In this document: piece by piece, positions 2,076 to 40,948 of the stretch | Layout: every line of letters begins with the position of its first letter | How positions within the stretch are numbered: the stretch's first letter is position 1 | Origin: Anaerolineales bacterium | GTDB lineage: Bacteria; Chloroflexota; Anaerolineae; Anaerolineales; Villigracilaceae | DNA length: 41,676 nucleotides | NCBI GenBank assembly: GCA_014379595.1 | Contig: JACMLM010000024.1 | Coordinates: 1-41,676 of the forward strand | Reading direction: 5' to 3' | Position numbers and translations under genes: made by a program | The notes under the pieces: model-generated | The model's database searches: none | What the model was told of the DNA's origin: nothing | What the model saw: the letters and a program-made list of their open reading frames with translations, nothing else

Positions 2076-2951
2076 ATGGATATCAAAGATAAGATTGTCG
2101 TAATCACCGGCTCTTCGCGCGGATTTGGATTCGCTATTGCTGAATCTTTATTGGAGGCAGGAGCAGTCGTCGCCATTACTGGAAGAAGCCAAAAGGCAGT
2201 CGATGGCGCATTGACCAATTTACGATCCAAAGGTCGTGTGAGCGGATTTGTGATGGATGTTCGTGAAGAAGGACAAGTTTATAAATTAGTCGAGAGTGTC
2301 ATCAAAGAATTTGGCCATATCGATATTTGGATCAACAACGCAGGCTACTCAAATGCTGCGGGTATGATATTGGATATGAACCCAAAAGATGCCTTGGATA
2401 TGTTCCTCTCCAATGACCTCGGTGCATTGTATTGCATACAAGCGATCGTGCCTTATATGCTCTCACGCAAGCAGGGGTTGTTAGTCAACTTATACGGCAA
2501 TGGAAGTTTCCTGCGCCCAGCGTCACCCACTGGACTCTATGGTGCAACAAAAGCATGGCTGACATCCTTCACGCGCACTCTCGCGAAAGAACTCAAAGGC
2601 AGCGGCGTGCAAATTTTGGGATTCAACCCAGGCATGTTGTTAACCGATATGCTCACAAACCCAATTGTAGTTGGCAAGCGTGGCATGGAAATGATGAAGA
2701 ATTTCGGCTTCGTTCTGCGTTTTCTTGGCAGACCCGCCGAATATGCAGCCAAAGAGTTGGTGAAAACAATTGCCAGCAATCGCAAAGAATTCAAAGAAGT
2801 TCAATTGCTCAAACCCTGGACTCCTTTATTGGGCTTGATTCGCGTCAATTGGGAAAACCTGACCAAAACTGGAAAAACGCCCGAGTTTACATTGCAGTAT
2901 CAGGAAGTTTATCAATCAAAATTTAACTCATCTGCAATCAAAAAAGAATGA
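2076..2951 (+). CDS. Short-chain dehydrogenase/reductase (SDR)
   Basis: A classical SDR of 291 residues: the nucleotide-binding motif TGSSRGFG is at residues 11-18, NNAG at 87-90, and the catalytic YGATK at 155-159 (Tyr155, Lys159). The usual catalytic Ser is not at the standard spacing; the nearest candidate is Ser144. Such enzymes reduce or oxidise ketones and alcohols with NAD(P)H. The C-terminal 60 residues extend a little beyond the core. The start follows a 76-bp gap after the regulator, and the stop overlaps the photolyase start by 4 bases, so it is co-transcribed with light-protection genes. The substrate is unknown. An oxidoreductase acting on a carotenoid or isoprenoid alcohol is possible, but that is inference from context only. 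Confidence 0.85.
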
Positions 2952-4315
2952 CAACTTCGATCTGGTGGATTCGCCGCGACTTAAGATTAACAGATAATTC
3001 AACGCTTCATTCCGCGCTTGAAGCTGGCGATGTTATCCCAGTCTTTATCATAGACCCGGCATTTTCTTCTCAATCTCCACGCCGAAAAAATTTTCTTTAC
3101 GAAGGGCTTCAGGCTCTCGATCAGGAATTAAGAAAACGCAATTCATATCTCATCATCCGTAACGGAAAGCCTGCTGAAGTATTACAGCAAATTATCAATG
3201 AAACAAAAGCTGAAACCATCTTCGCTGAGGAAGATTACACACCCTACGCCCGCAAACGTGACACGTTAGTGGCAAGACAACTCCCTTTGCAACTAATTTT
3301 TGGCCAAACCGTTCACCATCCTGAATTCGTCAAAAAAGCAGATGGCAAACCTTACACGATCTACACACCTTATTCAAAAATATGGAAATCTCTGCTTACT
3401 GAAATAAAGCTTTTCCCCCCACCTGAAAAAATAGAAACACCTGCGAATATTTTTTCGGAATCAATTCCCGAGCGTGAGACCAATTATCTTTTTCCCGCCA
3501 ACGAAGCAGAAGGTCTGAAAAGATTAATAAATTTCACCTCTGAGAGAATATTTTCTTATGGTGAACACCGCAATCGCATGGACCTGAATGGCACATCATC
3601 CCTTTCGCCATATCTGCGCTTCGGAATGCTCGGGCTGCGACAAGCCGTCAGTGCGGCGAGGCAGGCCCAAATGAATGGAAGAAGCGTAGATGAAAAAATT
3701 AATGCAGAAATATGGCTCAATGAATTAATCTGGCGCGAATTTTATATCCAAATTCTTTATCACTTTCCACATGTCAGAAAAGAGTCATTCAAATCATCTT
3801 TGGCAAATATCCGCTGGCGAAATGATATAGATGATTTTGAAAGTTGGAAAACAGGCAAAACTGGTATGCCAATTGTAGATGCGGCAATGAGGCAGCTTAA
3901 ACAAACAGGCTGGATGCATAACCGCGCACGCATGATCGCCGCATCATTTTTAGTAAAAGATTTATTGATCGATTGGCGCTGGGGTGAGGCATGGTTTATG
4001 GAAAATTTACTGGATGGAGATGTAGCATCCAACAATGGCGGCTGGCAATGGACAGCAGGCACAGGCACAGATGCCGCGCCTTATTTCAGGATTTTCAATC
4101 CTGTTTTGCAGAGTAAAAAATTTGACCCAAATGGAGATTACATACGCCAATGGGTTCCTGAATTAAGAGAGTTGCATGCAAAAGACATTCATGCGCCTTG
4201 GGAAAAGAATATAAAAATTGACGGGTATCCTGAAAAGCCCATTGTGAATCGAGAAATTGTAAAAGAAAGAACGTTGAAAGCATATAATATTTCGAAAGAG
4301 AAACTTAGATCATGA
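2948..4315 (+). CDS. phr: Deoxyribodipyrimidine photolyase (cryptochrome/photolyase family)
   Basis: 455 residues, the normal length for a class I photolyase. The N-terminal antenna-binding domain begins [19 protein letters not shown]. The FAD domain carries [46 protein letters not shown], the [17 protein letters not shown] block, and [24 protein letters not shown], all diagnostic of FAD-binding photolyases. The enzyme uses blue or near-UV light to split cyclobutane pyrimidine dimers in DNA. The start overlaps the SDR stop as ATGA, and the stop overlaps the next start as ATGA, so translation is probably coupled through the operon. Placement beside a CarH-like regulator matches light-induced phr genes in other bacteria. 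CPD photolyase is preferred over a pure photoreceptor cryptochrome, but sequence reading alone does not settle this. Confidence 0.95.
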
Positions 4316-28664: not shown

Positions 28665-29414
28665 ATGACAGGCGAATGGGAAAGCGATGAATTTATTGAC
28701 GAGATCGTTTTTGTCACAAGAGGCAAACATAAAGGTCGAATAGGCTATTGCGATGAATCTTATTCAAGAACATGGTGTATCGTTTACTTTGGTCATATGT
28801 TAACAGCACTTAGAATGGACTACAATATTTCTTATAAAAGTTTGCGGATAGCAAATGTAAATGATTTACTTAATCGACGCACAAAAATTGACCGCTTATT
28901 AATTCTCAATGAAATATTGGATGAAAAGCGCGTGACACTTCTTGAGGAGCTCATGTTAATTAAGGATATATTAAATGAAAAGGCAATAAGAGCAAAATTC
29001 TATCAAGCAGGTGAACAGAAAAAAGTATTTGTTTCACATTCATCTCAAGACAAGGCATTTGCAACACAACTAGCCTTTGACCTTTCCAATGCTGGATATC
29101 ATCCTTGGCTAGACAATTGGGAAATTTTCGCAGGAGATTCCATACCAAACAAAATAGCTGTGGGTATTAAGGATTGTGATTTTGTATTAGTTATATTATC
29201 CAAGAATTCAGTAAATTCGCACTGGGTTGAGCGAGAATGGGAAGCCAAATATTGGGATGAGGTTCAATCAGGCGAAATAAAAGTAATTCCTGTTTTACTT
29301 AACGAATGTGCTATTCCACAATTACTCAAGACAAAGAAATATGCAAACTTCACTTGGAATTATGCAAATGGTCTTGATGAAATACTCCTAGCACTAAATC
29401 GTACGCGAAGCTAA
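28665..29414 (+). CDS. TIR domain protein with an SH3/KOW-like N-terminal segment
   Basis: 249 residues. Residues 119-245 form a TIR domain: KKVFVSHSSQDKAFATQLAFDL, then GYHPWLDNWEIFAGDSI, VILSKNSVNSHW and EREW. Glu191 sits four residues after Trp187, the position of the catalytic Glu in NAD-cleaving TIR domains. Residues 10-48 (EIVFVTRGKHKGRIGYCDE, WCIVYFG) look like a small beta-barrel of the KOW/SH3 type, followed by a helical segment 66-115. The SD (AGGTGG) is clear. The gene is visibly more AT-rich than its neighbours, and with the repeat and DUF559 gene next to it may be acquired. Immune effector or signalling TIR is possible; no partner (STAND, SLOG, WD40) is adjacent. Confidence 0.82.
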   Translation: MTGEWESDEFIDEIVFVTRGKHKGRIGYCDESYSRTWCIVYFGHMLTALRMDYNISYKSLRIANVNDLLNRRTKIDRLLILNEILDEKRVTLLEELMLIKDILNEKAIRAKFYQAGEQKKVFVSHSSQDKAFATQLAFDLSNAGYHPWLDNWEIFAGDSIPNKIAVGIKDCDFVLVILSKNSVNSHWVEREWEAKYWDEVQSGEIKVIPVLLNECAIPQLLKTKKYANFTWNYANGLDEILLALNRTRS

Positions 29415-33286: not shown

Positions 33287-33706
33287 TCAACGCATGTTAT
33301 CGCGAAATGTCAGGAGCATGATGTATGCCCGTAATGGATTCTTTCGATAAATTTCAGCCGTAAACTCATTATGCAGAAATTGACTGTACCCAGGTTCATT
33401 CTTAATATCAGAGTTATCCAGGTTTTGGAAAGCCATTCCCCATTCAGAGAATTGGCGCGATTGTATTTGTTCTTTGGAAATGATGGAGACATCTTTATGG
33501 CGCGGATCATTCCTGATCTTTTCATACAAGGCAGTCACAGTTTCGTCATCACCTTCAAGCACTTGCATGAAATTTCCGCCCTTATAGAGCAGAAGCCCGG
33601 TAATTTCGCTGGAGCCATTGTTCTCGCGGCTTACCTTCAAGATATCCAGCAATTCATCATTGCTCAAAAGTTTGATGGAGGTACTTACGTAAATAAGAGA
33701 TAGCAT
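33287..33706 (-). CDS. BLUF domain blue-light sensor
   Basis: 139 residues from the ATG at 33706 (AAGGAGA lies 6-7 bases upstream; the longer TTG start is not needed). The BLUF domain fills residues 1-95: LSLIYVSTS with the photoactive Tyr6, S26-R-E-N-N30 (the Ser and Asn contacting flavin), EITGLLLYKGGNFMQVLEG with Gln48, and FSEWGMAFQ with Trp89 and Met91. All residues of the flavin switch known from AppA and Slr1694 are present. The remaining ~45 residues are a short helical tail with no output domain, so it is a stand-alone BLUF protein acting through a partner. It converges on the RRM gene. No FAD pathway gene is adjacent. Confidence 0.92.
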   Translation of the reverse strand: MLSLIYVSTSIKLLSNDELLDILKVSRENNGSSEITGLLLYKGGNFMQVLEGDDETVTALYEKIRNDPRHKDVSIISKEQIQSRQFSEWGMAFQNLDNSDIKNEPGYSQFLHNEFTAEIYRKNPLRAYIMLLTFRDNMR

Positions 33707-34236
33707 GGGGTTTCTCCTTACTAGCAATTATATAAGCTAAGTTGTTGCCCGAATCGCTCCCATTCTGATTGGGAGTCTCTAATAGGGTGGCTAACAAAGT
33801 CGATTAGATGAGTGGCATAATTTGGAAAACGTTGTTTGTAAAGTTAGTTTTAATTGAAACAATAAGTGAATAAACGCAAAGTAGATACGAGAGTGTGAGG
33901 ACATCGTGAGAAACGTCGAGATTTAAGAGCCAAGCGCACAAGATAGTGACGAAGTTCGCTTTGCCACTTTATTTTGACAGCTTCCCTCTTTGCATTATAG
34001 CCAGATTAATTTCATGCCTCTATTGTAATCCATATTTTTATTCACTCCCTGAAATGGAGATATCCATAGAGGTGATATTATCCCTTAACAGAAACAGGCC
34101 AAAAGATGGAAAGAGGCGGGCAATTTATCCAATAAAAAGTCAGGTTCAATCTATCACCCAAAGGTTCTAATTCAGATTCAAATCATTAGCTATTTCCTTT
34201 TGTTCGTGTACAATTGTTAATAATAAAGGGTTAATC
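33707..34236. other. 530-bp intergenic region without a recognisable gene
   Basis: Between the divergent BLUF and metallophosphoesterase genes. It is AT-rich. A short palindrome, CTCCCA / TGGGAG, lies at 33757-33775. A 74-codon open frame at 33946-34170 has no SD, an odd composition and no family features, so it is not called. The promoters of both flanking genes should be here. Confidence 0.5.
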
Positions 34237-34986
34237 ATGCGTATTGCTTTTATTTCTGATATTCACGGGAATTACATCGCGTATCAAGCCGTTCTTGCGG
34301 ATATTAATTCGCAAAACATTGATCAAGTTATTTGCCTTGGCGATGTGGCAACTCTTGGGCCGCAGCCTAAAGAGGTATTAAATGCACTCAAGGAATCAAA
34401 ATGCGTGTTGATCAGAGGAAATCATGACGAGGCGCTGCTTGACCCCGAACAGGCGGAAAAATTTGAGATCGCAGAACATCTTGTTCCAGATTTATTCTGG
34501 TGCAGAGAACAGCTAACTGAAGAAGATTTAAAATTTATTGGTTCATTTCGATCCACTTATGAAATCACTCTGCCGAACGGAGTGAGCACGCTTTGTTTTC
34601 ATGGGTCTCCGCTTTCTGTCACCCATCTCATTCAATCCACCACTCCCACTGAGTTGTTGGATAAATATTTTGAAGGCCAGAAAGCCACAGTATTTATCGG
34701 CGGGCATTCACACATCCAAATGTATCGTCGGCATGGGGATGTTCTTGTTCTAAATTCTGGAAGCGTAGGTAATGCCTTTATGTACGCTTATGCGCCTGGC
34801 AGCATTCCCAGCCTGCTGCCTTGGGCTGAATATACGATCATCAGCCAAAACGGAAATTCTCTGGATGTAGACCTGCGCCGCATATATTTTGATACAGAAG
34901 ATCTCCAAAAAAAGGTTAGAGAAAGCGGCCTGCCTGGCACAGATTGGTGGCTCAGACAATATCCAAAAAAAGAGCACAACAAATAA
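34237..34986 (+). CDS. Metallophosphoesterase (calcineurin-like, YfcE/MJ0936-type)
   Basis: 249 residues. The metal motifs are in order: ISDIHGN (DxH) at the start, LGDVATLGP (GD), IRGNHDEAL (GNHD), CFHGSP, and GGHSHIQMYR (GHxH) near residue 155. This is the pattern of small soluble calcineurin-like phosphodiesterases that act on cyclic nucleotides or other phosphoesters. It is followed after 67 bp by a class III cyclase-like gene on the same strand, so a phosphodiesterase role for a nucleotide signal is attractive, but only as inference. The last ~40 residues are basic and rich in Lys. Confidence 0.88.
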   Translation: MRIAFISDIHGNYIAYQAVLADINSQNIDQVICLGDVATLGPQPKEVLNALKESKCVLIRGNHDEALLDPEQAEKFEIAEHLVPDLFWCREQLTEEDLKFIGSFRSTYEITLPNGVSTLCFHGSPLSVTHLIQSTTPTELLDKYFEGQKATVFIGGHSHIQMYRRHGDVLVLNSGSVGNAFMYAYAPGSIPSLLPWAEYTIISQNGNSLDVDLRRIYFDTEDLQKKVRESGLPGTDWWLRQYPKKEHNK

Positions 34987-34987
34987 T

Positions 34988-35017
34988 TAAGTGCAAAAAT
35001 TTAGGGCGTGCTATACT
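34988..35017 (+). promoter_or_regulatory. Likely promoter with extended -10 before the cyclase-like gene
   Basis: TATACT at 35012-35017 is preceded by TGC (an extended -10, TGnTATACT). The -35 region around 34988 is weak. The start codon lies 36 bases downstream. Position and context fit, so the cyclase-like gene and the 976-residue gene behind it may form their own transcript. Confidence 0.4.
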
Positions 35018-35053
35018 GTCTTGAAATTTAGGCAAATATTATCAAGGTAAAGT

Positions 35054-36136
35054 ATGGCCGAGACCAGACACGGTTATCTCGTTCTTGCAGATATCAGCGG
35101 ATACACAGGTTATCTTGCGCACGTGGAACTTGAACACGCGCACGAGATCCTTACTGATTTGCTTGAAACCATCGTGGGGCAATTTAAACAGGCACTTACC
35201 ATTTCCAAACTTGAAGGTGACGCGGTTTTCGCAAATGTAGATGAAGAAAAACTCCCTCGTCCGGAATCCCTGCTTGAATTAATTGAAAATACCTATGTTG
35301 CTTTCCGCCGCAGACGCGATGGCTCTCAGCGCTCCACTACCTGCACCTGCCGCGCCTGCCAAAGTATGAATTTGCTTGAATTAAAATTCTTTGTGCATTA
35401 TGGCGATTACATTGTACAAAATATTTCGGGAATTCGTGAACTCGTCGGGTCAGATGTCAACCTCGCGCACCGCCTGATGAAAAATCACGTCACTGAAAAT
35501 ACAAACTGGCAAGCCTACGCGCTCTTCACACAATCTGCAATGGAATGCACAGGACTGCAACTCGATGGATTGCACTCACAAGACGAAACATATGAACACC
35601 TCGGCACGGTTCAAACGTGGACCTTCAACCTGCTCCCGCACTACGAGGCTTTGGTCTCAGCCCAAAGAGTGACCGTCCCGCCTGAAGAAGCCGATATCAT
35701 CACCACACATGAATTCAATGCGCCTCTCTCCGAAATTTGGGATTGGATCATGGATATTCAAAAACGCAACGAATCAATGGGAGACATGGGACATTGGAAA
35801 ATCATCTCACGCAATAAGGGGCGGACAAGTGCAGGCGCAAAGAATCACTGCTCCCATGGCAAGGGTGCATCCACTGAAACAATTATTGACTGGCGTCCAT
35901 TTGAATATGCCACTGTGGAAACAGTGGACGGTATGGAAATGTTCCGCGAAATGACTTTATTCACGCCATTGGATGAAGGCAGGCGTACACATGTTGAATC
36001 TCGAATAAAACTGGTTAAACCCGTTCCATTATTTATTGCACGCATCTTTGCTAAAATGCAGTTCAGGAAGATGAATCCATACAAAATGTGGTTCAGCAAG
36101 ATCGAAAAGCTACTTAAAAAACAAAACAGCGAATAG
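35054..36136 (+). CDS. DUF2652 class III nucleotide cyclase-like domain fused to an SRPBCC domain
   Basis: 360 residues. Residues 6-190 resemble a class III adenylate/guanylate cyclase: the first metal Asp is D13 in LVLADISGYTGYL, the second is D56 in KLEGDAVFA, and the transition-state pair is N136 and R140 in GSDVNLAHRL. An insertion at 97-102 carries CTCRAC. Residues ~215-345 form an SRPBCC (START/polyketide-cyclase-like) domain beginning ITTHEFNAPLSEIWDWIMD. All main catalytic positions look occupied, though the family is usually annotated only as DUF2652. It is followed 17 bp later by a protein with a cyclic-nucleotide-binding domain and preceded by a phosphoesterase. Activity and product are unproven. 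Confidence 0.75.
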   Translation: MAETRHGYLVLADISGYTGYLAHVELEHAHEILTDLLETIVGQFKQALTISKLEGDAVFANVDEEKLPRPESLLELIENTYVAFRRRRDGSQRSTTCTCRACQSMNLLELKFFVHYGDYIVQNISGIRELVGSDVNLAHRLMKNHVTENTNWQAYALFTQSAMECTGLQLDGLHSQDETYEHLGTVQTWTFNLLPHYEALVSAQRVTVPPEEADIITTHEFNAPLSEIWDWIMDIQKRNESMGDMGHWKIISRNKGRTSAGAKNHCSHGKGASTETIIDWRPFEYATVETVDGMEMFREMTLFTPLDEGRRTHVESRIKLVKPVPLFIARIFAKMQFRKMNPYKMWFSKIEKLLKKQNSE

Positions 36137-36153
36137 TTGTTACCCAATATTTT

Positions 36154-39084
36154 GTGATTAACAAAATCCAATCTCTTCTCAACATCCGCGCAAATGAAGG
36201 CAAGCCTGCTTTGTTGCTTGTGGGCATCATGTTCTTCAGTACGGCAGGGTACAGTCTCGGTGGCACAGGCATTGAAGCTTTATATTTCGCGCGCTTTGGC
36301 ACAGACTTGCTACCCTATCTTTATATGGGACTAGGGATTCTATCTCTCATCACTACGCTTGCCATCACAGGTTTGCTCGGTCGTATCAAACGCGAACGTA
36401 TGTATGTGATCGTTCCATTCATTGCGGCGATCTTTCTTCTTATTGCATGGGGATTGTTATTCAGCAATTCCAAATTTATTTATCCAAGTCTCTGGCTGGG
36501 CAAAGAAGTATTGAATACAGTTGTTAGTATGATCGCGTGGAATACGGCAGGCGTGGTTTGTGATTCACGGATGGCAAAGCGGCTTTTCCCTCTTTTTAAT
36601 GCATCCCGCATTCTTGGCGCCGTGCTGAGCGGGCTTGGCACAGGTCTGTTGGTAAAGTTCATCGGCACACAAAACCTTGTCTTTGTGTGGGCGCTTTCAA
36701 TGGGCATGGTCTTTGTGATGACGAGAATATTGATGAGAGGAAAATACATTTCGGAGCCTCGCAGGCAAAAGCGGCGTGTGAAGCGTCGTTCTTCGTCATT
36801 CATAAATGAAATGGTAAAAGGCTGGCATTACGTGCGCGCCTCTGCGCTAATGCGCTGGATGTCGCTTGCGTCAATCCTTTTTTCAATATTATATTTTTCC
36901 ATCGCGCTTCCATTTTCACGCTCAACTGCAATGCAATATCCAAATGAAAATGAGCTTGTTTCGTTCCTCGGTTTATTTAATGGCTTAAGCACTGCGGCAG
37001 CGTTTATTACATCCATCTTTTTTGCCAATCGCCTGTTCGCGCGATACGGGATCATGAGCATGATTCTTGTATTCCCGCTCATCTATCTGTTTGGGTTCGG
37101 CGCATTAACCATCTTCAATGGTTTCGCGATCATCGTCGCGTTCCGCTTTGTGCAAACAATCTGGCTTTCCGGTATTGCTGATTCAGCCTATCAAACAGTG
37201 TTCAGCGCCGTGCCTCCAGAAAAACGCGATCAAGTTAACGCCTTCGTAAACGGTGTGCCCGAACAGGCAGGCGTATTTCTTGCGGGTGGAATTCTCATTA
37301 TCGGCGAGACATCATTTACAACCCAACAACTTTATCTCGTTGGGCTTGTCTCTGCAATTACGACAACGTTCATTATTTGGCGTGCATCATATGCATATCG
37401 AGTGGCACTTGTGACATCTTTGCAGGAAGGTCGCCCCACAATTTTTAGCGGACGCGCCACAACCCATGATTCAACATCGATTTCGGTTGCGCTTGAAAAT
37501 ATAAAACACCCCGACCCGCTTGTGCGACGTGTCTCTGTCGAAATGCTTGGAGAGATGAACAACGCTGGTGCGTTAATCCCTGCTTTACAAGATAATGATA
37601 TTGACGTGCGCATCGCGGCATTGAAAGGACTCGTTCATCACGTGCCAGCCCTTGTTGAAGTTAGCGCGCTTCTCACTGACTCTGAACCTGCTATACGACA
37701 ACAAGCGATTCGCACACTGAGAGTTTTATCTCCCGACCCACAGATCATGCATAATTTTATTGAACCTATACTGCATGATAAGGAAACACATGTACAAATT
37801 GAAGCCGCTCTAGGCTTATTGAAAATAGATGAACATCGCGAAGCACGCCAGTTGATACGCGATATCTGTGTGAACGGCTCACTCGACGAACGAGTCCATG
37901 CGCTGAATGCCATGTCTGAATTAGGTGACCGCGAAGCCTATGACCTAATTGCCGCACAATTACAAGATCACGATGCGTCCATCCGTCGTGCTGCTGCGTT
38001 GGCATTGGCTTCCTGTGGTGAACATGCGATTCCTGTATTAATTAACTCTCTCAATGATAAAAATTTATCTGTTCGCGAAGGAATTGGTCAGGCCCTTTCC
38101 AAAATTGGGAAAGAATCAACATTGCCTGCGATCACTGCATTAAATGATGAAACACGTGTTGACGGCGCATTGCTCGCACTTTCTTATTTGCCTGTCAACG
38201 GATACTCAAGCGAGATAAAAACTTTCGTTGCAGAGAAAATCAAATCTGCGCTTTATTATGATGATCTTGCGCGAAAAATAATCCCTGTCAACGAACGCCT
38301 CGGTCTGCTTGTTGATTCCATTCGCGCACATGCACAAAATGCTGGCACACAAGCCCTTCAGGCATTAAGCCTTCTCAATGACCGTGAGAGCATCAAAATT
38401 GCAATTGATAATTTACAAAGTAAAGAATCCACCCAACGCGCCAATGCCCTGGAAACTTTGGAAAGTATTCGTGACTCAAATTTGATTCGTCCACTGATTC
38501 ATTTATGGGAATCTTCAAAAGATGAAAATATTTTCCAGACTGACTACGCGCAGGAAGTATTACCAAAGCTCTTAATAGAAACTGATTCCTGGCTGCGAGA
38601 TTGTGCAGCTTTTGCATTAGAAAATACAAAAGGTGAACCTATGGATACTCGTCTCACACTACCGATCATGGAACGCGTTTTATTACTGCGTCATGTTCTT
38701 TTATTAGCTGACCTCACCCCCACTGACTTGCAGCGAGTCGCCACATTAGCTACAGAGCATCATGTGGATGATAATGAAGTCATCTTTGAGCAAGGTGATT
38801 CAGGTGACGAGATGTATGTGATCGTCCGTGGTGAAGTGAAAGTGATGATCAGCAATAATGGAGAAAACGAAAGAGAAGTTGCAAGGCGCAAAATGGGAGA
38901 TGTAGTCGGCGAGATGGCAATTATCAGCGGTGAGCCACGCATCGCCACGTTAATAGCAAACGGCGAGGTTCACTTATTATGTTTGGATCGTAAAAGCTTT
39001 GAGGGTTTGTTGCGAGAAAGACCAGAAGTTAGTCTGGCAGTGATGCGTGTGTTGTGTGCAAGGTTAAAAGAAGCAACGAATTAG
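36154..39084 (+). CDS. NTT/MFS-like transporter fused to HEAT repeats and a cyclic-nucleotide-binding domain
   Basis: 976 residues, start GTG at 36154, 17 bp after the cyclase-like gene. Residues 1-430 hold about twelve hydrophobic segments and resemble the nucleotide-exchange (NTT/TLC) or MFS transporters. Residues ~443-840 are HEAT repeats (for example PDPLVRRVSVEMLGEMNN and ALKGLVHHVPALVEV). Residues 850-976 are a cyclic-nucleotide-binding domain with the phosphate-binding loop VVGEMAIISGEPRIAT, where Glu920 and Arg929 occupy the sugar and phosphate contacts, as in CRP-type domains. This suggests a transporter or membrane receptor gated by cAMP or cGMP. It most likely pairs with the upstream cyclase-like gene. 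Transported substrate unknown. Confidence 0.82.
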   Translation: MINKIQSLLNIRANEGKPALLLVGIMFFSTAGYSLGGTGIEALYFARFGTDLLPYLYMGLGILSLITTLAITGLLGRIKRERMYVIVPFIAAIFLLIAWGLLFSNSKFIYPSLWLGKEVLNTVVSMIAWNTAGVVCDSRMAKRLFPLFNASRILGAVLSGLGTGLLVKFIGTQNLVFVWALSMGMVFVMTRILMRGKYISEPRRQKRRVKRRSSSFINEMVKGWHYVRASALMRWMSLASILFSILYFSIALPFSRSTAMQYPNENELVSFLGLFNGLSTAAAFITSIFFANRLFARYGIMSMILVFPLIYLFGFGALTIFNGFAIIVAFRFVQTIWLSGIADSAYQTVFSAVPPEKRDQVNAFVNGVPEQAGVFLAGGILIIGETSFTTQQLYLVGLVSAITTTFIIWRASYAYRVALVTSLQEGRPTIFSGRATTHDSTSISVALENIKHPDPLVRRVSVEMLGEMNNAGALIPALQDNDIDVRIAALKGLVHHVPALVEVSALLTDSEPAIRQQAIRTLRVLSPDPQIMHNFIEPILHDKETHVQIEAALGLLKIDEHREARQLIRDICVNGSLDERVHALNAMSELGDREAYDLIAAQLQDHDASIRRAAALALASCGEHAIPVLINSLNDKNLSVREGIGQALSKIGKESTLPAITALNDETRVDGALLALSYLPVNGYSSEIKTFVAEKIKSALYYDDLARKIIPVNERLGLLVDSIRAHAQNAGTQALQALSLLNDRESIKIAIDNLQSKESTQRANALETLESIRDSNLIRPLIHLWESSKDENIFQTDYAQEVLPKLLIETDSWLRDCAAFALENTKGEPMDTRLTLPIMERVLLLRHVLLLADLTPTDLQRVATLATEHHVDDNEVIFEQGDSGDEMYVIVRGEVKVMISNNGENEREVARRKMGDVVGEMAIISGEPRIATLIANGEVHLLCLDRKSFEGLLRERPEVSLAVMRVLCARLKEATN

Positions 39085-39526: not shown

Positions 39527-40948
39527 ATGTTCGTTACAAAAAATCTTTACCAAAACGATGAAGCGTGGAAAGCAACCTCGTTGGGGAATTCCAGTGAAAC
39601 GATTGGCGGTTGGGGCTGCCTACTCACATCAGTCACCATGATGTTAAATGGAATTGGTTATAACGAAACACCTGTCACCGTCAACCAGAAGATGAAAGCT
39701 GCTGGCGGATTCCAAGGGGCGTTTTTTATCCCTAGCGTGCTGCCTTATGTTTGGCCCAATGCCGCTTACCGTGATATGCAGCCCTGCGAAGCGTCCCCTG
39801 CACCTATTGCTCAAATTGATGCAGCCGTTGCAGCTGGCAAGGCTGTTATCTTGCAAGTAGATTGGAACAAGCAAGCAGGAATTCAAACACATTTTGTTTT
39901 AGTGAAAGAAAAAAAGGGGAATGATTATTCAATTTACGATCCTTATAAATACGGCGGCGATGGCCCCGATAAAGATGTGTTACTCACCACACGTTATAAA
40001 TTCAATGGTGCAAAATTAGCGACCGAGATCAGCGCAGTATTATGGTTCGACTCGTACAGCAGCACTCCGCCTGAACCTCCCAAGGTTACAAAGGTAGCTG
40101 TGCCCGCAGAAAAATATATTATCTATGCCGGCGAAGATGATCTTGCCTTGCGCGCCGACCCATCTGTTGGCGGCTATTTGTGGAAGCGCATGTTAATGGC
40201 AACGGAGTTGATCTCTCTCGAACCTAAAGCACAAGCCAAAGCAAAAATTGGTGTGCAAGGCCAGTGGATTCAAGTACAAGATCCCAAAGGCGATCAAGGA
40301 TATGTAGCTGCCTGGTTTGTTTCCGAACAAAAAGGCAAGCCCGCTTCTTCCTCATCGACAACTGTTTCAGCTCCCACACCGGGGACAGCGCCGAAACCTG
40401 GTTCTGTTCCTGCTCCCAAGCCGGGGACAGCGCCAACGCCTGGATCTGCACCCGTCCCCGCTGGGGCAATGGCACTCTTCCCCACCGAAGAATTATCCTT
40501 CCGCTCTCAACCTGTAATTTCACCCGAAACTTTAATTCGACGCGTTCCCACAACCGAACAATTGATCAGCCTTGAGCCAGCAAATCAAGCCATTGCAAAA
40601 GTTGGTGTCCAAAATCAATGGATAAAAGTTCGTGATGCAAACAAGAAAGATGGATATGTCGCTGCATGGTATGTAAAATACGCCAGCGGATCAACCGCCC
40701 AAGCGACAGCCGCAGCCACCCCAGCGACAAATGGCGTTGCAAAAGTGAAGGCCGCCGCAGAAGGCGTGGCGCTCCGCAATCAACCAGTTGTTAATGACAG
40801 CACGTTAATCAAAAGAGTAGGGATCAACTACGAATTTACAGTTGCAGAACCAGGCGGCGAGGCAAAAGTCGGCGCGAATGATAAATGGATCAAAGTAAAA
40901 GATGCAACCCATGAAGGCTACGTTGCGGCATGGTTTGTTTCGCGGTAA
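39527..40948 (+). CDS. C39-like cysteine protease domain with three SH3-like repeats
   Basis: 473 residues, SD GGAGG 9 bases before the ATG. Residues 1-175 look like a Peptidase_C39_2 domain: Cys31 in GGWGCLLTSVTMML, His122 in THFVLVKEKK and Asp138 in YSIYDPY fit the catalytic triad. Three SH3b-type repeats follow at about 195-266, 313-383 and 405-472, each ending GYVAAW(F/Y)V. The first two are separated by a repetitive Pro/Thr/Ala/Gly linker. No signal peptide or membrane helix is present, unusual for SH3b cell-wall proteins, so it may act inside the cell or be exported without a classical signal. A TIR protein gene starts 21 bp downstream and is probably co-transcribed. Confidence 0.8.
   Translation: MFVTKNLYQNDEAWKATSLGNSSETIGGWGCLLTSVTMMLNGIGYNETPVTVNQKMKAAGGFQGAFFIPSVLPYVWPNAAYRDMQPCEASPAPIAQIDAAVAAGKAVILQVDWNKQAGIQTHFVLVKEKKGNDYSIYDPYKYGGDGPDKDVLLTTRYKFNGAKLATEISAVLWFDSYSSTPPEPPKVTKVAVPAEKYIIYAGEDDLALRADPSVGGYLWKRMLMATELISLEPKAQAKAKIGVQGQWIQVQDPKGDQGYVAAWFVSEQKGKPASSSSTTVSAPTPGTAPKPGSVPAPKPGTAPTPGSAPVPAGAMALFPTEELSFRSQPVISPETLIRRVPTTEQLISLEPANQAIAKVGVQNQWIKVRDANKKDGYVAAWYVKYASGSTAQATAAATPATNGVAKVKAAAEGVALRNQPVVNDSTLIKRVGINYEFTVAEPGGEAKVGANDKWIKVKDATHEGYVAAWFVSR

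Follow-up and report, generated by a model that had tools for sequence, protein, structure and literature searches.

What do three neighbouring genes of an Anaerolineales bacterium (Chloroflexota; Villigracilaceae) do together, if a cyclic-nucleotide signal is what joins them? The window, by which is meant the whole 41,676-nucleotide stretch of DNA analysed here (contig JACMLM010000024.1, assembly GCA_014379595.1), is the entire contig 27 of a 72-contig, 4.47 Mb genome, and its positions 34237-39084 hold three co-directional genes, here called P1, P2 and P3, separated by intergenic gaps of 67 and 17 bases. An earlier note on this DNA had seen in them a phosphoesterase, a cyclase and a cyclic-nucleotide-sensing transporter, and had proposed ligand-controlled production, sensing and removal of a cyclic nucleotide. 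Its coordinates, its domains, the residues that it named and the 17-base gap between P2 and P3 are all correct. The best reading of the sequences and models is that P2 and P3 would produce and sense a cyclic nucleotide. On balance, and with modest confidence, we take the two to be a signalling-to-transport module in which a nucleotide-type transporter has a dedicated cyclic-nucleotide switch, itself probably gated by a ligand. The nearest named relatives at the P2-P3 locus are metagenome-assembled genomes (MAGs) of Anaerolineales or Chloroflexota. The features are as follows.

34237-34986, + strand: P1, calcineurin-like phosphoesterase, 249 amino acids (aa); a neighbour, probably outside the module
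35054-36136, + strand: P2, DUF2652 (class III cyclase-like) and SRPBCC-like protein, 360 aa
35054-35668, + strand: cyclase-fold domain of P2, about aa 1-205 (AlphaFold model, structure matches, column counts)
35090-35092 and 35219-35221, + strand: codons of the metal Asp residues of P2, D13 and D56
35342-35359, + strand: CTCRAC motif of P2, aa 97-102 (C97-x-C99-x-x-C102), a mark of the DUF2652 family
35690-36088, + strand: SRPBCC/polyketide-cyclase-like domain of P2, about aa 213-345 (PF10604 and model)
35843-35860, + strand: NHCxHG motif of P2, aa 264-269, inside the SRPBCC-like domain
36154-39084, + strand: P3, NTT-type transporter with HEAT repeats and a cyclic-nucleotide-binding (CNB) domain, 976 aa, GTG start, 17 bases past P2
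36181-37437, + strand: NTT/MFS transporter domain of P3, about aa 10-428 (profile and structure matches)
37471-38628, + strand: HEAT-repeat solenoid of P3, about aa 440-825 (PF13646, E 1.4e-28, five stretches; model)
38665-39078, + strand: CNB domain of P3, about aa 838-975 (PF00027, E 1.2e-20)
38911-38940, + strand: CNB cassette of P3, E920...R929

Chance can be excluded as an explanation because the DUF2652, HEAT, CNB and phosphoesterase matches lie far over their cut-offs and the order P2-P3 recurs in other genomes.

The first question is whether P2 could make a cyclic nucleotide at all. It matches PF10851 (DUF2652) with an E of 1.9e-27 and 96.0 bits against a gathering score of 22.1, and this family was predicted in 2016, without assay, to consist of class III cyclases (Ramakrishnan et al., PMC4886424, available sections). 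D13, D56, N136 and R140 stand in the P2 sequence at the numbers given in the earlier note. Conservation was counted in alignment A2, which joins the window's P2 to 56 of the 68 DUF2652 open reading frames (ORFs) from the named loci and leaves out 12 short, partial or duplicate ones (among them the degenerate L132 9384-10250), so that its counts lean high; a 68-row set from the host's family is the fairer yardstick for DUF2652 overall. In the 57 rows of A2, D13, D56 and R140 are found in all 57 and N136 in 53, while K52 and E129 each occur in 49. In the family set, both Asp residues are found in 68/68 rows, R140 in 66, E129 in 60, K52 in 54 and N136 in 42. The full set of six (D-K-D-E-N-R) is complete in all 20 A2 rows from loci linked to P3; in the family set it is complete in 19/19 rows linked to P3 against 20/49 of the others.

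Lys52 and Glu129, absent from the earlier note, are likely the base-selecting pair of P2. Lys52 is four residues ahead of the second metal Asp, which we take to be the position where adenylyl cyclases carry their adenine-binding Lys. Ten A2 rows deviate at 52/129 (five E/K, two K/D, two R/E and one Q/D), six of them at both sites, and nine of the ten retain opposite charges, which fits two partners in base binding. The E/K swap is seen in L163, L166, L167, L174 and L178 (Chlorobi/Ignavibacteria, Desulfobacterota-type and Rokubacteria MAGs), and a paralogue in the host's own genome has D/K (L034 6175-7389); the genome holds three DUF2652 genes in addition to P2. Judged from the sequences, such swaps likely mark a changed base preference. 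Both K/E and E/K pairs have been described within DUF2652 (PMC4886424, available sections).

The structural evidence points the same way. An AlphaFold model of P2, built from the 57 homologues, reaches a predicted local distance difference test (pLDDT) score of 91.2, and the best matches of its aa 1-199 are class III cyclases (Foldseek, 1wc1, E 1.3e-9). In structural comparison by VIA, the model gives Z 19.6 with the adenylyl cyclase CyaC (1wc1_C; root-mean-square deviation 2.4 over 181 aa) and Z 19.4 with the guanylyl cyclase Cya2. Searched by sequence, the PDB yielded no useful match to P2 alone and only weak SRPBCC matches to the A2 profile (best 0.02). Taken together, a class III cyclase-like fold in aa 1-199, with all catalytic positions in place, is supported. 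The CTCRAC insertion that the earlier note had listed as a feature of P2 is indeed present at aa 97-102; it is not peculiar to this protein, since all three Cys residues occur in 68/68 DUF2652 ORFs of the family set (C97, C99 and C102 in 57, 56 and 57 of the A2 rows).

Not every DUF2652 protein is so complete. Degenerate DUF2652-SRPBCC copies (L131 8089-9156, L132 9384-10250 and L044 445-1506) have kept the metal Asp residues and lost the base pair and the Asn; those in L131 and L132 sit directly behind full-set copies, an arrangement that resembles a heterodimer with catalytic and regulatory halves. At three other loci a class III cyclase-like gene stands right before the DUF2652-SRPBCC gene on the same strand (L319 2890-5372, L294 2579-5358 and L061 6095-10030), and the two genes of L319 overlap by 4 bases. 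One could consider from this that P2 is itself a cyclase homologue without catalysis, serving as an adaptor that binds a ligand and acts on P3 or some other cyclase, and both the tandem degenerate copies and the cyclase-like neighbours would suit that role. Against it, the catalytic positions are all intact in P2 as in every A2 row linked to P3, and charges at 52/129 are kept opposite in nine of the ten rows where the residues change, so we regard an adaptor as decidedly improbable.

The second half of P2 raises the question of control. PF10604 (SRPBCC) is matched by 46 of the 57 A2 members at E<=0.01, and in the model this half runs strand-helix-helix-strands-helix, an order that fits a helix-grip fold. 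Within it lies the NHCxHG motif, in which C266 is kept in 56 of the 57 A2 rows, H265 and G269 in 53 each, H268 in 52 and N264 in 46, and which might bind a metal or a ligand. Ligand control of P2 through this domain is what we infer from its presence. The SRPBCC-like domain is the single ground for the ligand control of which the earlier note had spoken, and in P2 the PF10604 match falls below its cut-off (E 1.1e-4; 23.0 bits against 27.4).

What would the signal act upon? In P3, Pfam finds HEAT_2 and cNMP_binding at the values given above and MFS_1 just below cut-off (E 3.3e-8). A profile of 27 transporter domains (A4), searched against the PDB, matched Chlamydia pneumoniae NTT1 (9j3n, E 2.5e-16) and plant NTT1 (1.2e-9), with one other entry, at 0.01, up to an E of 1. 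The P3 model has the 12-helix NTT fold followed by helical HEAT repeats, and in VIA it compares best with AtNTT1 (9j3l, Z 29.3) and CpNTT1 (9j3n, 28.2), then LacY (25.8), with Z 20.2 for outward-open CpNTT1 (9j3o). PF03219 is found in 19 of the 27 transporter-domain members at E<=0.01, and not in P3 itself. By homology and predicted fold, then, the transporter domain is NTT-type (ATP/ADP translocase-like). P3 scores 24.9 bits with the NTP/NDP exchanger family TIGR00769, far below its cut-off of 387.2, so the transported molecule is not fixed by family score.

At the other end of P3, E920 and R929 supply the Glu and the Arg of the phosphate-binding cassette in the CNB domain, and both are intact in all 15 rows that reach the cassette in the 19-row alignment A3. 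The domain superimposes on Mycobacterium tuberculosis CRP with bound cyclic adenosine monophosphate (cAMP) (4a2u_H; VIA, Z 20.2, root-mean-square deviation 1.8, 139 aa). Transporter, HEAT repeats and CNB domain are all found within the single P3 chain, as the earlier note had described. A separate 121-aa ORF that consists of a CNB domain only and is 60% identical to that of P3 is seen downstream of another P2-P3 pair (L127 11041-11406).

If P2 and P3 form one device, their genes should keep company elsewhere, and the earlier note had proposed this as a check. In a sample of 136 genomes of the host's family, DUF2652 is found in 44 and a P3 match at E<=1e-20 in 49. The P3 loci were classed by eye on identity, as P3a (at least 43%, 21 loci), P3b (30-43% by tblastn piece, 13 loci) and P3c (21-28%); left out of the 21 P3a loci are a contig-edge fragment (G055:C42) and the other halves of two split genes (G134:C90 and G129:C174). 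At 17 of the 21 P3a loci, a DUF2652 gene with the same orientation stands immediately upstream, although near copies at the locus (G023/G121 and G092/G123) mean that these are not 17 independent cases. Gene starts were taken as the first in-frame start codon, and some overlaps are artefactual. By genome, close P3 and DUF2652 occur together in 20, close P3 alone in 1, DUF2652 alone in 24 and neither in 91 (Fisher 6.7e-11, kinship not corrected). On a tree of the 57 P2 proteins, with both copies of tandem DUF2652 genes scored as linked, the P3-linked state takes nine changes, and none of 500 shuffles was as low; the pair thus spans several branches and has been repeatedly lost or gained. The flanks vary, with MurJ-type and xseA-like genes (named by eye) in some genomes, P1 in four and a cyclase in others. 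The adjacency of P2 and P3 is supported as real and conserved.

A phylum sample of 400 genomes was run later as a further test of the pairing. It brought four P3 loci in new genomes (G644, G753, G595 and G748). In G644, of a different Chloroflexota family, a DUF2652-SRPBCC gene abuts the start of the P3 match; its product is 32% identical to P2 over 268 aa and has the D, D, N and R residues as well as YHCIHG. No cyclase was detected beside P3 in G753, G748 or G595, the last of which is at a contig edge.

A second kind of cyclase is also found next to P3 relatives. In G094, G101 and G098, the gene directly ahead of P3b is a canonical class III cyclase, with gaps of 49, 81 and 55 bases, and in G356, of another family, a P3 relative precedes a canonical cyclase by 38 bases. 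On one strand of L249 3183-14301 (G094), a cyclase, P3b, DUF2652-SRPBCC and P3a stand in a row, and the order in L061 (G096) is cyclase, DUF2652-SRPBCC, P3a. In G133 and G122, a cyclase-like gene divergent from P3b lacks the Asn and Lys at the expected places and should weigh less. The search used seven query domains (blastp, E<=1e-6) or a hidden Markov model of them, which divergent cyclases may escape. For 36 P3 loci and three arrangement classes (same strand before, same strand after, divergent), 0.126 canonical neighbours are expected by chance, and the probability of 3 or more is 3e-4; without the divergent class, that of 2 or more is 0.007. These estimates are rough, assuming 4000 genes per genome and no correction for kinship. 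Canonical cyclases are common, being present in 133 of the 136 family genomes, and the support that this adjacency lends to a cyclase-CNB link is for that reason graded medium.

A cyclase gene that adjoins a gene for a CNB-bearing membrane effector also calls to mind the anti-phage system Pycsar. On this explanation, P2 would make a cyclic nucleotide upon infection and P3 would be an effector that harms the cell, for example by loss of ATP through the NTT domain. The outline is the same, and the CNB region of P3 (that region only) matches PycTIR and Pycsar TIR-effector models with values of roughly 1e-16 to 1e-15, and a PycC model at 2e-13; nine of the 57 P2 homologues weakly match a PycC model as well, the best at 0.0042. 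For P2 itself, however, PADLOC gives no match at E<=1. Two positions ahead of its first metal Asp, P2 has L11, and L, I or V stands there in 57/57 rows, where EaPycC has the aromatic F100 two before D102 (PMC11224242, available sections; the spacing is taken from EaPycC only). P2 was for these two findings not assigned to Pycsar. P3, too, is a 12-helix NTT fold rather than a short pore, and identical flanks recur in several genomes, unlike those of a roaming defence cassette. The phage collection, searched with P2, gave no match at 1e-5; in the plasmid collection, P2 has only two distant matches at 1e-10 and P3 has none. Together these give no sign of mobility. A defence role is accordingly very unlikely in our estimation.

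The arm of the earlier proposal that is not supported is removal of the messenger by the phosphoesterase. P1 matches Metallophos_2 (E 8.9e-22), and its homologues (E<=1e-30) occur in 62 of the 136 family genomes; the pair is missing from 48 of these, stands elsewhere in 10 and has P1 near it in 4. In these four, the distance is 67 bases (G000), 122 bases (G026), about 1.0 kb (G134) and 1.2 kb (G103). NCBIfam scores are all below cut-off, the best being YfcE-type, and among solved structures P1 is closest to unannotated metallophosphoesterases and to YfcE, none of them named as a cyclic nucleotide monophosphate (cNMP) phosphodiesterase. A circuit of three genes for production, sensing and removal can draw on the same strand and short distance of P1 at this locus, on the four genomes, and on L253 5596-10000, in which a metallophosphoesterase-like gene (recognised by eye and unlike P1 in type) lies 82 bases before a P3 relative. 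Since P1 homologues stand away from the pair in 58 of their 62 genomes, and no close solved relative is named as a phosphodiesterase of this kind, such a circuit is extremely improbable. P1 as a conserved third part was rejected on the same counts, and it is probably an incidental neighbour.

How might the two remaining genes work? The folds, the conserved catalytic and cassette residues and the co-directional adjacency come from computation, and from them we infer activity, product, ligand, direction of control and substrate. P2 would be a soluble class III nucleotide cyclase of the DUF2652 branch, probably gated by a small hydrophobic ligand in its C-terminal SRPBCC-like domain. Its product would be a purine cyclic mononucleotide, most likely cAMP because Lys52 and Glu129 sit where adenylyl cyclases have their Lys/Asp pair. 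P3 would bind this messenger with its C-terminal CNB domain, and its HEAT solenoid would relay the resulting change to the NTT-type domain, thereby switching the exchange of a nucleotide or a similar phosphorylated metabolite. A wider proposal, which we put forward tentatively and hold to be somewhat doubtful, is that NTT-HEAT-CNB proteins are cNMP-gated nucleotide translocases that have repeatedly been given a private cyclase (DUF2652-SRPBCC or canonical class III) in Chloroflexota; nucleotide exchange across the membrane would thereby be set by a hydrophobic ligand that SRPBCC senses, through a messenger drawn from the same nucleotide pool.

A number of observations weigh against a dedicated switch. 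The activity of P2 and the ligand binding and transport of P3 are predictions from sequence and models. The SRPBCC match is under the Pfam cut-off in P2, and fold-search rows stop at aa 199, short of that domain. Glu129 stands where the classic pair has Asp, and the G644 copy (L252 4778-5809) has Q/Q at 52/129, so the charged base pair is dispensable in one P3-linked copy. The end of the last CNB helix, the site of the base-selecting residue in CRP, is short and variable, so cAMP is not assured as the ligand. Four of the 21 P3a loci have no adjoining DUF2652 (G093, G101, G056 and G129, the last without DUF2652 genome-wide). No cyclase was detected beside 8 of the 13 P3b loci, nor in G463, G753 and G748, and none adjoins any of the 16 fetched P3c loci, the copy at C51 of the host's own genome included. 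Outside the family, 0 of 40 DUF2652 regions in the phylum sample have P3 (the G644 locus, read apart, and the unfetched matches G835:C92 and G672:C87 are excluded), which indicates that DUF2652 has other partners too. Within the named loci, P3 is downstream of DUF2652 in 18 of 60, leaving 42 without a P3 neighbour, some of them cut by contig ends. Of course, the host genome also has nine PF00211 matches and 12 CNB domains, and crosstalk with these is possible.

The many DUF2652 genes without P3 and the further CNB domains and PF00211 matches of the host genome are equally what favours co-expression as the whole of the link: P2 would feed cAMP into a general pool read by CRP-like proteins, P3 would answer that pool or some other ligand, and the two would merely share an operon. 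Three observations speak for a closer tie. The pair recurs across genera and amid different flanks (MurJ/xseA-type, P1 or cyclase), intact catalytic sets track linkage to P3, and P3 relatives are paired with a second type of cyclase, as if the cyclase-CNB link itself were what is kept. A general pool therefore strikes us as unlikely, and the dedicated switch remains the reading that we favour.

The remaining features of the window lie outside this argument. A stand-alone BLUF blue-light sensor gene (33287-33727) is divergent from the P1-P2-P3 run; its homologues are absent from every other fetched locus, the sole match being the window itself (L001), and light control through this gene was dropped for that reason. 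A DNA photolyase gene lies at 2948-4315. A TIR-domain gene at 28665-29414, + strand (PF13676, E 4.2e-31), matches anti-phage TIR models, the best at 1.3e-18. Downstream of P3 is a gene for a C39-peptidase-like/SH3 protein (39527-40948); the nearest relatives, G103 (L084), G134 (L203) and L126, have kept it in the same place. A scan for promoters and terminators gave counts under the shuffled mean.

How much of this is new? The earlier note had not seen the arrangement described, and in a search of open-licence papers no paper on a DUF2652/NTT-HEAT-CNB gene pair was found. The parts are not undescribed, since DUF2652 as a predicted cyclase family and NTT-HEAT-cNBD fusions (cNBD being the CNB domain) are both in print. 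For DUF2652, the available sections of PMC4886424 place CNB genes in the vicinity of certain mycobacterial members and describe one fusion to a polyketide cyclase, in Bradyrhizobium. P2 shares with that family the D/D metal pair, the Lys/Glu pair and the Arg; it differs in that the transition-state Asn is kept in its group (53/57) and in none of the 53 proteins of the paper's table, and in that the C-terminal SRPBCC-like domain is the rule (46/57) where those sections give one fusion. Chloroflexi are not mentioned in the available text of that paper, nor is an NTT- or MFS-type partner named there.

Fusions with the architecture of P3 were reported in 2017, when the cNBD was guessed to bind cAMP from adenylate cyclase (Major et al., PMC5381601, available sections). 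According to the same sections, NTT-HEAT and NTT-HEAT-cNBD proteins are widespread in bacteria and found also in oomycetes and Chlamydia, and an adjacent cyclase gene, present beside P3, is unreported for them. Pycsar (PycC with PycTIR or PycTM; PMC11224242, available sections) likewise pairs a class III-fold cyclase with a neighbouring effector that bears a CNB domain; P2, however, has neither the PycC match nor the aromatic residue, and P3 is a full transporter where Pycsar has a TIR or pore effector. In outline, P3 is also similar to the sperm Na+/H+ exchanger SLC9C1, which has a transporter and a CNB domain in a single chain; the transporter is of another type, and with TM-scores of 0.10-0.14 to the P3 model no whole-chain homology is claimed. 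SLC9C1 has a voltage sensor where P3 has HEAT repeats. These comparisons suggest that the P2-P3 pair joins known parts in a new way, with a linkage that recurs.

The fusions under discussion were functionally uncharacterised as of 2017, and the role of their CNB domain was open (PMC5381601, available sections). A putative cyclase gene 17 bases upstream of P3 offers a concrete pair with which cNMP control of a nucleotide-type transporter can be tested. In turn, P3 gives an assay partner to the predicted DUF2652 cyclases, a family that is also found in mycobacteria.

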